Source: Thermoleophilia bacterium | GTDB lineage: Bacteria; Actinomycetota; Thermoleophilia; Solirubrobacterales; 70-9 | Length of the DNA: 37,772 nt | Direction of reading: 5' to 3' | NCBI GenBank assembly: GCA_016650125.1 | Contig: JAENWT010000023.1 | Span: forward strand, 1 to 37,772 | Shown here: positions 5,236-34,732 of the stretch, piece after piece | Layout of the letters: every line of letters starts with the position of its first letter | Numbering within the stretch: position 1 is the stretch's first letter | Notes under the pieces: generated by a model | Database searches by the model: none | Told to the model about the DNA's origin: nothing | Seen by the model: the letters and a program-made list of their open reading frames with translations, nothing else | Made by a program: the position numbers and the translations under genes

Positions 5236-5448
5236 CTACTCAAGCACGATGAGGACGTCACCTTCGGTGACCGACTGACCCTCTTCGCACTTGATCTCCT
5301 TGACGACACCGTCATCCTCGGATTCGACCGGAATCTCCATCTTCATCGATTCCAGGATCACGACTTCGTCGCCATCCTCGATCGTGTCCCCGACGGCGCA
5401 GGTGATTTTCCAGACGTTTCCTGTGATGTGGGCTTCGATGTTCGCCAT
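5236..5448 (-). CDS. Stand-alone 70-residue biotin carrier protein (biotinyl/lipoyl domain)
   Basis: A free biotin carboxyl carrier domain, as found in mycobacteria and relatives, which shuttles carboxyl groups between a biotin carboxylase and a carboxyltransferase. The whole protein is one biotinyl domain with the attachment site ILESMKMEIP; Lys36 is the predicted biotinylated residue. An acidic C-terminal half (EDDGVVKEIKCEEGQSV) completes the beta barrel. No carboxylase subunit is adjacent. The enoyl-CoA hydratase follows on the same strand, and the carboxyltransferase at 22994 lacks its own carrier, so it is one possible partner (inference). Confidence 0.9.
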   Translation of the reverse strand: MANIEAHITGNVWKITCAVGDTIEDGDEVVILESMKMEIPVESEDDGVVKEIKCEEGQSVTEGDVLIVLE

Positions 5449-5506
5449 AGAGCCGCAACCTTAGCCCAACCAAAGCCACCGCGTCTGGCAATGGCCCGGA
5501 CTCCTT

Positions 5507-5547
5507 TGGCCGCGGTTTCAAGGGCTATCGATAGGAAACCGTTGCCA
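5507..5547 (+). repeat. Family A hairpin A1 (13-15-13)
   Basis: Left arm TGGCCGCGGTTTC, 15-nt loop AAGGGCTATCGATAG, right arm GAAACCGTTGCCA. The arms pair except at stem positions 5-6, where CG faces TT. First of a pair: the next hairpin starts 71 bases downstream after a 30-nt linker. The left arm extended outward to 5504 forms a perfect 16-bp inverted repeat with the far end of the element (6834-6849). Confidence 0.85.
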
Positions 5548-5577
5548 GAGCATGTGGCGGGTCGAGCCATCAATGTC

Positions 5578-5618
5578 TGGCCGCGGTTTCCGTTCTCATT
5601 GATAGGAAACCGCGGCCA
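5578..5618 (+). repeat. Family A hairpin A2 (13-15-13, perfect)
   Basis: Perfect 13-bp arms TGGCCGCGGTTTC and GAAACCGCGGCCA around the 15-nt loop CGTTCTCATTGATAG. It is the second of the upstream pair and has the same orientation as A1, with loop ending GATAG. No open frame runs through it. The 326-base gap between the biotin carrier and the DUF559 gene holds this pair, and I see nothing else in its remaining part (5619-5774). Confidence 0.9.
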
Positions 5619-5774
5619 GGGGGCTTCGGTTGCGGACGCCGTGGTTTCTGCTTCCAGATCACGTTGACCTTTCGTCAGCAATTGCCAGCCATGCTTGAGC
5701 AAGTCCTCGGGAATGTTGGGACATGAAGCCTCCCGGTCCAACGAACCTTCGGCAGCCCATCGGGGTCAAGTCCC

Positions 5775-6689
5775 TTGAATGAGACCGAAACGATGCTGCG
5801 GCTTGCGAAGGCTCAGCACGGTGTTGTTTCCCGTCAGCAGCTGGTGATCGCGGGAATCTCGGGCACGCTCATCGATCAACGGGTTCGGGATTCGAAGTTG
5901 ATTCCGGTGTTCACGGGGGTCTATGGGCTGGGACACGATGTGATCAGCCATCGTGGATGGTGGTGGGCAGCCCTGTTGTCGGGTGGGCCGGGCACGGTTC
6001 TCTCCCACACGAGCGCGGCGGCTTGCTGGGGGTTGATCGCGCCGCGCAACCGGACAGAGATTTTGCGCCGGTATAACCGGGACCGGCTGACCGGAAGTCC
6101 ACCGCGATTGAACGCGAAGCTGCTGACGGTGCACCGGAGTCGTTGCTTGCCTCCTGGGGACTTGACGGTCCACGATGGATTTCCCGTCACCACCGTTGCC
6201 CGAACGATCCTCAATCTCTCGGCTCGCTCCTCACCAGCCGAAGTCGAGTCACTGGTCAGCGAAGCAGACAGGCTGGAGATCCTGGACTGGAAGCAACTGG
6301 AGGAAGCTTCGGAGAGGGGACCAGGGTGGAAGGGAACGCGCGAACTCAAACGAATTCTCGAGGCCTGGGACCCGAGGAACGGCGAAACGAAATCGAGACT
6401 TGAGCGCCGATTCCTAAGCTTCTGTCATCTCCACTCTGTTCCAGCTCCTCTCGTCAATGTGTGGCTCGAAGGATTCCAAGTCGATTGCTTCTGGCCCGGC
6501 AAACGTTTGGTCATCGAACTTGACAGTCGCGGATTTCATGCGGACCTCAAGACGTTTGACAGTGATCGAAGTCGAGATGTAATCCTCAAGAATGCGGGGT
6601 ACGATGTCCGCCGGGTCACCCATCGGCATCTGGTTGAGCAGCCCGGCTTCGTTCTCAGCGAGGTGCTGTCTCCCCTTCGCAACGCCTAG
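5775..6689 (+). CDS. AbiEi-like N-terminal domain + DUF559 (Vsr-like nuclease fold) protein
   Basis: Two-part protein of 304 residues. Residues about 5-60 are a winged-helix AbiEi-antitoxin-type domain (AKAQHGVVSRQQLVIAGIS, then a conserved PVFTGVYGLGH). The middle has the usual SHTSAAACWGL and the ...TTVARTILNLSA motif. The C-terminus (about 230-304) is DUF559, related to Vsr/PD-(D/E)xK nucleases: D237 in FQVDCFW, E248/D250 in VIELDS, then FH and a distal basic GYDVRRVTHRHL. The start is TTG 5775 or ATG 5793; neither has a strong ribosome site. The biological role of this family is not established. In AbiE type IV toxin-antitoxin systems the AbiEi domain binds inverted repeats, and this gene is bracketed by palindromes. 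Confidence 0.8.
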   Translation: MNETETMLRLAKAQHGVVSRQQLVIAGISGTLIDQRVRDSKLIPVFTGVYGLGHDVISHRGWWWAALLSGGPGTVLSHTSAAACWGLIAPRNRTEILRRYNRDRLTGSPPRLNAKLLTVHRSRCLPPGDLTVHDGFPVTTVARTILNLSARSSPAEVESLVSEADRLEILDWKQLEEASERGPGWKGTRELKRILEAWDPRNGETKSRLERRFLSFCHLHSVPAPLVNVWLEGFQVDCFWPGKRLVIELDSRGFHADLKTFDSDRSRDVILKNAGYDVRRVTHRHLVEQPGFVLSEVLSPLRNA

Positions 6690-6734
6690 TTCGCTCCACG
6701 CGGGAGTACCCGACCTCTGCCCCGCCCAACGCCC

Positions 6735-6775
6735 TGGCAGGGATTTCCCGTGCTCTGGATAGGAAACCGTTGCCA
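6735..6775 (+). repeat. Family A hairpin A3 (degenerate left arm)
   Basis: Left arm TGGCAGGGATTTC, 15-nt loop CCGTGCTCTGGATAG, right arm GAAACCGTTGCCA. The right arm equals that of A1. The left arm has drifted so the stem is interrupted in the middle, but the arm and loop lengths are kept. It starts 46 bases after the DUF559 stop codon. Confidence 0.75.
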
Positions 6776-6805
6776 AAGTGTTGCTCGGAGTGGATTCGAG
6801 GATTC

Positions 6806-6846
6806 TGGCCGCGGTTTTCGTTGTCATGGATAGGAAACCGCGGCCA
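6806..6846 (+). repeat. Family A hairpin A4 (13-15-13, near-perfect)
   Basis: Left arm TGGCCGCGGTTTT, loop CGTTGTCATGGATAG, right arm GAAACCGCGGCCA; the only imperfect pair is the innermost T-G. It starts exactly 71 bases after A3, as A2 does after A1. Extended outward to 6849 it is the inverted copy of the outer end of A1. Confidence 0.88.
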
Positions 6847-6910
6847 AAGAGGTGAGGGTGACCCCGTTGACCTTCCCTGCTCTGATTTCGACGGTAGGGT
6901 CAGCTTTGTG

Positions 6911-18998: not shown

Positions 18999-19692
18999 AT
19001 GGAAGAGCCCAAGTTTTCACACCGCATGATGATCGAGCTCGGCCGCCCTCAGTTCGGGGTGGTCACACGGCGACAGTTGCTTGCCGCCGGGTTTGGTTCC
19101 GGTCTCATCGACTATCACCTGCGAAATGGACAGCTCTGGCCCGTCTTTCGCGGCGTTTACGCGGTCGGACGATCGGTGGAGCGGCAAAAATCGATCTGGA
19201 TGGCGGCCACCCTCGCAAGCGGCCCTAACCGATCGGCAGTTTGGTGCAGCTGTCGCCGAGGCGAGCCGCCGGGGCTACCTGAACGTCGAAGTGGTCACCC
19301 AGATCCTCGAGTTCGGCTTCGGCATGGAAGGAAGCGCGCGACTCCGCAATGGACTTCGGTGGTGGAGTCCGGAGACGGTAAACGTCCTATCTGTACTTGA
19401 AGGCATGTTCCAGAAGATCTGTCACGAGAATTCGATCGAGATGCCGAAGATCAACCGGCGGGTGTGCGGCCTGAAAGTGGACTTCGTTTGGCCAAAGCAA
19501 AAGGTCGTCGTGGAGACCGATGGGTTCACCTTCCACGGCGATCTCATTTCCTTCAAGCGGGACCATGAGCGTCTGTCGATCCTTGCCCGGGGTGGATACC
19601 TGAGGTTGGCGTTCACTTACTGGCAGATCACGGAAACACCGGAGGAAGTAATAGAGGCAGTGCTGGTCGGCCTGACCACCTGGAGTCCCTGA
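18999..19692 (+). pseudogene. Broken AbiEi-like/DUF559 gene (internal deletion with frameshift)
   Basis: The first frame (from ATG 18999) gives the AbiEi-type winged-helix domain: FGVVTRRQLLAAGFGSGLID, then PVFRGVYAVGR and AATLASGP. Homology then stops, and the DUF559 half continues in another frame from about 19223 (ALTDRQFGAAVAEASRRG ... VDFVWPKQKVVVETDG, FHGD) to a stop at 19690-19692. The central part found in the intact copy at 5775 (about 90 residues with the SHTSAA and ARTILNL motifs) is missing, so a deletion at roughly 19210-19225 explains both loss and frameshift. The predicted nuclease residues VD and ETD are still intact. It is bracketed by hairpins B1 and B2. Confidence 0.8.
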
Positions 19693-34514: not shown

Positions 34515-34612
34515 GGATGGATTCCCCCGAATCTCGTTGACTGGACTTAAGGATGGGCGCCGGATAGACAAGAACGTCACGAACGGCCATGTCGACTCAG
34601 CCCAAACGCTTC

Positions 34613-34653
34613 TGGCAACGGTTTCTCGTGGCATGGATATGAAACCGCGGCCA
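34613..34653 (+). repeat. Family A hairpin A5 (13-15-13, solo pair)
   Basis: Left arm TGGCAACGGTTTC, loop TCGTGGCATGGATAT, right arm GAAACCGCGGCCA. The arms pair except at stem positions 5-6, where AA faces CG, the same place as the mismatch in A1. No DUF559 gene is near. Confidence 0.85.
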
Positions 34654-34684
34654 GAGCGCGTGTTCCGCTGATCTCAACGCACTC

Positions 34685-34725
34685 TGGCAACGGTTTGACG
34701 GCCTATGGATAGGAGACCGCGGCCA
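34685..34725 (+). repeat. Family A hairpin A6 (13-15-13, solo pair)
   Basis: Left arm TGGCAACGGTTTG, loop ACGGCCTATGGATAG, right arm GAGACCGCGGCCA. It starts 72 bases after A5 (linker 31 nt), repeating the pair structure of copy A, and again carries the AA/CG mismatch at stem positions 5-6. It ends 7 bases before the ACT-domain gene's stop codon (minus strand), so it could also serve as its 3' hairpin. Confidence 0.82.
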
Positions 34726-34732
34726 AAGATTC

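Follow-up and report, generated by a model that had tools for sequence, protein, structure and literature searches.

AbiEi-DUF559 Genes Paired with Private Dispersed Palindromes in a Thermoleophilia Bacterium and Its Relatives: A Likely REPtron-like Two-Part Element

The window analysed here, a stretch of 37,772 nucleotides from a Thermoleophilia bacterium (contig JAENWT010000023.1), contains an AbiEi-DUF559 gene, and we are highly confident that this gene and the palindrome repeated on both of its sides form a cognate pair. The locus belongs to a large family of two-part elements found in this actinobacterial order. Computation established that gene and palindrome are paired, that the palindromes are dispersed and genome-specific, that the chromosomal site is vacant in relatives, and that the encoded protein has a conserved active site and two folds. 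The likely explanation is a REPtron-like two-part element, composed of an AbiEi-EDxHD nuclease and a private palindrome of ~35-50 bp, which would behave as a repeat-spreading or homing-like selfish unit. With slightly less assurance, we favour the view that the nuclease itself is responsible for binding, cutting and spreading the palindromes.

The Window Locus and Its Chromosomal Site

The gene (5775-6689, plus strand) encodes 304 amino acids from a TTG start at 5775, with an in-frame ATG at 5793 possible as well, and lies in a stretch at 5449-6910 inserted between the divergent genes for BCCP (5236-5448, minus strand) and a glycosyltransferase (from 6911, plus strand). These two genes are its neighbours, and no AbiEii (DUF1814) toxin gene adjoins it at the window locus. 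On either side stands a doublet of palindrome units on the plus strand, with start-to-start distances of 71, 1157 and 71 nt along the four units. The left doublet comprises unit 1 (5505-5549), a degenerate hairpin (z -1.8) scoring 62.9 bits with the covariance model of the family (R1), and unit 2 (5576-5620), a strong hairpin with a perfect stem of 15 bp (z -7.5; 61.9 bits), separated by a linker (5550-5575) whose sequence differs from that of the linkers in other doublets while the spacing is kept. The right doublet likewise consists of a degenerate unit 3 (6733-6777; z -0.3; 56.5 bits) followed by unit 4 (6804-6848), again a strong hairpin (z -5.6; 65.2 bits). These coordinates confirm the claim of the earlier note that two palindrome doublets with a period of 71 nt surround a single AbiEi-DUF559 gene. 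Its description of the hairpin pairs as identical in geometry holds for the spacing of 71 nt within both doublets and not for the units, since single-strand folding revealed unequal hairpins, the second unit of each doublet being strong and the first degenerate. The outer arms (5504-5519 and 6834-6849) indeed form the perfect inverted repeat of 16 bp that had been noticed, as direct reading of the sequence showed; this repeat exists because the palindrome is copied directly on both sides of the gene, an arrangement that always yields one, and hence it was dropped as evidence of transposon ends. The window and ten hairpin loci gave no match to any Rfam family at gathering score. The layout of the locus exceeds chance, because the unit belongs to a genome-wide family of ~31 copies.

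Twenty-eight relatives from the order have 46-219 bp between the BCCP and glycosyltransferase genes and no AbiEi-DUF559 gene there, as compared with ~1460 bp here, so that the comparison of orthologous loci with and without the unit, proposed earlier, found the site empty in these relatives. The G+C content of the gene is 59% versus 65% for the window. The simplest reading would be that the gene together with its palindromes came into the window lineage. A second AbiEi-DUF559 copy is present in the window at 19026-19668 (plus strand), broken, with the AbiEi and nuclease parts in different frames and the middle partly missing; judged from these features, it belongs to the same family and has decayed.

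Dispersal of the Window Palindrome in the Genome

Using BLASTN, a pattern scan and the R1 covariance model built from 23 copies, the palindrome of the window was found as ~31 units in 17 places of the 2.83-Mb draft genome, with the consensus TCTGGCmrCGGTTTCCCGTGnCATGGATAGGAAACCGykGCCAGA. The units form mostly doublets or triplets, 71-72 nt apart and in some cases 60-62 nt, with only 2-3 units per cluster, and the linkers between them are constant in length and mostly place-specific in sequence. All 13 places examined are intergenic according to a codon-usage gene call. A second doublet within the window has no AbiEi-DUF559 gene beside it (34611-34727, plus strand, with units at 34611-34655 and 34683-34727 and a period of 72); it lies between two convergent genes, the right-hand one of which ends 5 nt away according to the gene call. 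Four units flank the AbiEi-DUF559 gene and ~27 of the 31 stand alone without it. Thus, hairpins scattered independently of DUF559 genes, which the earlier note had named as the case against its reading, are literally what is seen for most copies, yet each family has one cognate gene. The covariance-model search of the genome and its relatives that the same note had proposed, which returned the ~31 units here, left 231 further genomes from the order without a match at E 1e-6, and among the 40 nearest genomes there was a single weak match of 31 bits. Nor was this palindrome found at the other AbiEi-DUF559 genes of the same genome.

Pairing of the arms within the family is not above that of shuffled alignments in a covariation test (88.8% versus 89.9%). 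A constraint at the RNA or hairpin level is therefore unsupported by covariation and a functional hairpin is not argued for; since covariation is no higher than in shuffles, the hairpin form is not required and a duplex site for a dimer suffices.

Palindromes of Other AbiEi-DUF559 Genes

A second AbiEi-DUF559 gene of the genome (C5:148740-149609), 40% identical to that of the window, is flanked by a different palindrome, TTCTTTGCCGCGTTcgatgcgtataggaccacAACGCGGCAAAGAA, whose left and right copies are 98% identical and which occurs in 25 places of the same genome and is absent from all 20 relatives searched. Beside the third such gene (L119, G000:C3), a very strong palindrome, AAGTGGTGTCGATTTGCACGGGATTTACGTGCAAATCGACACCACTT, with arms of ~20 bp, lies ~85 nt to the left, on one side only.

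The generality of such pairing was assessed by a flank test, in which a repeat had to be common to the left and right flanks of a gene and palindromic on both, with at least 40 bits and a hairpin score of 8; these thresholds were chosen by the analyst and applied equally to the controls, and flanks were extended 100 nt into the gene in test and control alike, which catches families overlapping the end of the reading frame. The sample comprised ~80 AbiEi-DUF559 loci from the order together with matches from the phylum, mostly from draft genomes with one per species, and the final set held 103 genes. Twenty-three of the 103 carry a palindromic repeat of their own on both flanks, versus 4 of 1200 mismatched flank pairs drawn from the same set. 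An earlier version of the test was positive for 13 of 80 AbiEi-DUF559 genes and for 0 of 167 other open reading frames, and among 278 displaced windows 0 had palindromes scoring at least 9 on both sides. Among genes from the genus of the window, 11 of 21 pass the strict test. No clear common flank palindrome is seen at the strict threshold in roughly four fifths of the 103, and these genes may have decayed, one-sided or different palindromes. Between families the arms are unrelated, orthologous pairs excepted. In two species (L179 in G009 and L187 in G012), the right-hand palindromes lie past an extra stretch of several hundred bases adjoining the AbiEi-DUF559 gene, and because this stretch resembles a further gene, the bracketed unit may hold cargo.

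Dispersal was observed in all four families traced genome-wide, namely those of the window and C5, L192 (from G009, in the window's genus; 14 places, absent from 3 of 3 congeners) and L225 (from G028, a complete genome of another taxonomic family; 13 places, likewise in 0 of 3 congeners), so that copy numbers range from 13 to 31 and each palindrome is private among the relatives searched. No gene other than the AbiEi-DUF559 gene has two close copies around it in any of the four. The dispersed copies are intergenic, mostly in convergent or tandem gaps and in divergent ones too, in many cases 5-15 nt past a stop codon, a position that terminator or mRNA-end functions would also fit. One copy called inside a gene (L203) was discarded as a contig-end artefact, the palindrome not being at the presumed position. 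In two families, the similarity between aligned copies stops abruptly at the edge of the palindrome, and no target-site duplication was recognised by eye in the alignments. In several of the G028 copies (L251-L267), another GC-rich stretch (..CACGGAGGACGC..) is conserved ~20-30 nt past the palindrome, which suggests a composite repeat.

Certain rules are common to palindromes that are otherwise unrelated. CATA/TATG is found in the central 18 nt of 15 of 24 families versus 3.2 expected by shuffling (maximum 9); the centre of the window family has CAT and GATAGG and not the exact CATA. Tandem copies have a period of ~68-74 nt in the families of the window, L155, L179 and L187, the last two being orthologues. 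Before the AbiEi-DUF559 gene of L155 (4552-4929, G084), there is a palindrome array with an exact 72-nt period and similar linkers, as in a tandem duplication, and this period matches that of the unrelated window family. Similarity of palindromes tracks that of the proteins (Mantel r 0.34, reached in 0 of 5000 permutations), a correlation driven mainly by the two closest protein pairs, which at 71% and 68% identity keep recognisably the same palindrome. Co-variation of protein and palindrome is what cognate recognition would predict.

The AbiEi and EDxHD Nuclease Domains of the Protein

The window protein matches DUF559 above the Pfam gathering score, MTES_1575 and AbiEi_4 below theirs, and the PADLOC AbiEi models with values down to 1.8e-23. 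In an AlphaFold2 model built from 52 homologues (mean pLDDT 91.5), residues 1-199 (5775-6371, plus strand) comprise a winged helix and a second domain with the fold of AbiEi antitoxins (6y8q, Z 12.9), and residues 205-304 (6387-6686, plus strand) form an EDxHD nuclease domain (I-Bth0305I, 3r3p, Z 12.8; Vsr, 1cw0, Z 10.7); a sequence profile independently matches 3hrl and 3r3p. An AbiEi-type winged helix fused to a DUF559/Vsr-like nuclease, as read from the sequence earlier, is thus borne out by domain matches and fold comparison alike. Residues E210, D237, W240, E248, D250, H255 and D264 (codons within 6402-6566, plus strand) are invariant in the 52 aligned homologues and therefore the nuclease is probably active.

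Proposed Mechanism and Alternative Explanations

Antitoxins of the AbiEi family bind to inverted repeats within the promoters of their own genes (PMC7319586) and I-Bth0305I dimerises on a DNA target nearly 60 bp long (PMC3943268), and for this reason a dimer with winged helices on the arms and the nuclease at the centre would be the natural geometry. Accordingly arranged, such a dimer would read the two arms of the palindrome through its winged helices, as AbiEi proteins and the co-variation suggest, and the nuclease domains would cut or nick near the centre, often at CATA/TATG, to which the fold, the invariant active site and the central motif point. Repair of the break would then place copies of the palindrome in further intergenic sites, now and then together with the gene and the palindromes around it, and the element would work like a REPtron (REP plus RAYT) with unrelated enzymes; such copying by cutting is suggested by the dispersal, the species specificity and the vacant sites. 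A palindrome-recognising and possibly mobile element, resembling REP/RAYT systems with another protein, had been put forward in the earlier note, and it is supported well beyond the window locus by the 23 of 103 genes with their own palindromes, the dispersal in four of four families and the empty sites. Most copies (~27 of 31) stand alone and hence are not mere borders of a unit, and movement, binding and cleavage belong to the proposed part of this reading.

A regulatory explanation, though unlikely, fares best among the alternatives. The AbiEi part would be an autorepressor with the palindromes as its operators, the dispersed copies would represent a regulon or transcript ends, and the nuclease would do another job such as phage defence. 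It would draw on the binding of AbiEi-family antitoxins to promoter repeats (PMC7319586), the N-terminal AbiEi fold, a palindrome upstream of each positive gene and dispersed copies that are intergenic and often near gene ends. However, copies also lie downstream of the gene and far from it, which weakens the autoregulatory operator array offered earlier as an alternative; the dispersed copies occupy convergent, tandem and divergent gaps with no conserved class of neighbour, the families turn over completely between congeneric species, unlike a conserved regulon, and no toxin gene adjoins the window locus.

It is more doubtful still that REP-like palindromes are spread by another enzyme and that AbiEi-DUF559 genes are mobile cargo with a preference for landing there. 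Insertion sequences targeting REPs have been published (PMC1525189), and the window gene is indeed an insertion relative to relatives, but the genes of one genome sit in different palindrome families instead of sharing a REP, orthologues retain the palindrome that belongs to them, none of 167 other open reading frames is bracketed and the genome has no Y1 transposase. That ordinary palindromes such as terminators or GC-rich intergenic hairpins flank the genes by chance or through palindrome-rich gaps is very improbable, since, although hairpins abound in high-GC genomes and 25 of 1200 mismatched pairs pass lax thresholds, if weakly, the mismatched flanks of the same composition and hairpin richness gave 4 of 1200 versus 23 of 103 at the strict ones and the repeats are near-identical multi-copy families.

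Relation to Known Systems and Significance

The two-part element preferred here is closest to REPtrons, which combine GTAG-type REPs with RAYT (TnpA-REP) tyrosine transposases, and to TIRtrons. In these the palindrome on both sides of a gene recurs elsewhere in intergenic regions and a genome can hold several gene-specific families; REPs have family-specific partner genes, form dimers and clusters and are found for the most part downstream of genes or between convergent ones (PMC3733652). As in REPtrons, the window gene is flanked by a palindrome dispersed elsewhere in the genome. The partner differs, as REPtrons have an HUH Y1 transposase where an AbiEi-like winged-helix module and an EDxHD nuclease are found here, and a search for Y1_Tnp (RAYT-type transposase) gave no match in the window genome (a draft, 95% complete) while control genomes matched. 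The repeats differ as well, lacking the GTAG foot (the window consensus runs from TCTGGC to GCCAGA and other families start otherwise), having a central CATA/TATG in many families and numbering 13-31 copies instead of hundreds. Membership among REPtrons was rejected for the folds of the partner, the missing Y1 HUH transposase and the missing GTAG foot. CGTC-tagged REPs are likewise dispersed intergenic palindromes, with a dedicated transposase not known (PMC3733652), but no CGTC tag was seen in the families here.

With the homing endonuclease I-Bth0305I and with Vsr, the protein shares the fold and conserved acidic and histidine residues (E210, D237, H255 and D264 being invariant), and the target of I-Bth0305I, nearly 60 bp, is about the size of the palindromes here (PMC3943268). 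In contrast to homing endonucleases, the DNA-binding part is AbiEi-like and there is no interrupted site of its own, the palindromes as presumed sites being intact on both sides and also dispersed, and the family not being found by the model in relatives with the vacant site. A conventional intron-borne homing endonuclease was ruled out for the window gene, which lies outside any intron or intein. Residues 1-199 have the two-domain AbiEi fold of type IV AbiE toxin-antitoxin systems (6y8q, Z 12.9), but a nuclease domain is added and the palindromes are found downstream and genome-wide too; an AbiE toxin-antitoxin pair was ruled out by the lack of a toxin gene (AbiEii) beside the window gene. 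MITEs and REPINs are short, non-coding, palindromic and species-specific repeats. The palindromes here are also short, palindromic and genome-specific and form doublets of fixed spacing, as REPINs sometimes do (PMC3116915), but no target-site duplication was recognised and the would-be autonomous partner is a nuclease from another superfamily. Linkers of constant length and different sequence recall CRISPR arrays, but clusters in the window family hold 2-3 units.

In the searchable open literature, no description of such an element and no paper on a link between AbiEi and DUF559 was found, and nothing relevant by title or abstract on DUF559 with palindromes or mobile repeats. The kind of element is rated as new, its mechanism being a proposal.

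Dispersed extragenic palindromes are widespread, and a part of them, such as the CGTC class, are without a known mobiliser. To our knowledge, the partner proteins so far described for them are HUH tyrosine transposases. We give an even chance to the broader proposition that AbiEi-EDxHD proteins evolved separately as a second class of enzymes that spread repeats, whose dimers would recognise and cut their own palindromes and seed private families without an HUH transposase, and which would explain at least some 'orphan' REPs. If so, genomes would acquire repeats by a new route, through nucleases of a different superfamily whose genes each have a single private palindrome, a role would be assigned to AbiEi-DUF559, a very common combination of 'unknown function', and dozens of natural protein-site pairs would be at hand for learning the rules by which long palindromic sites are recognised.
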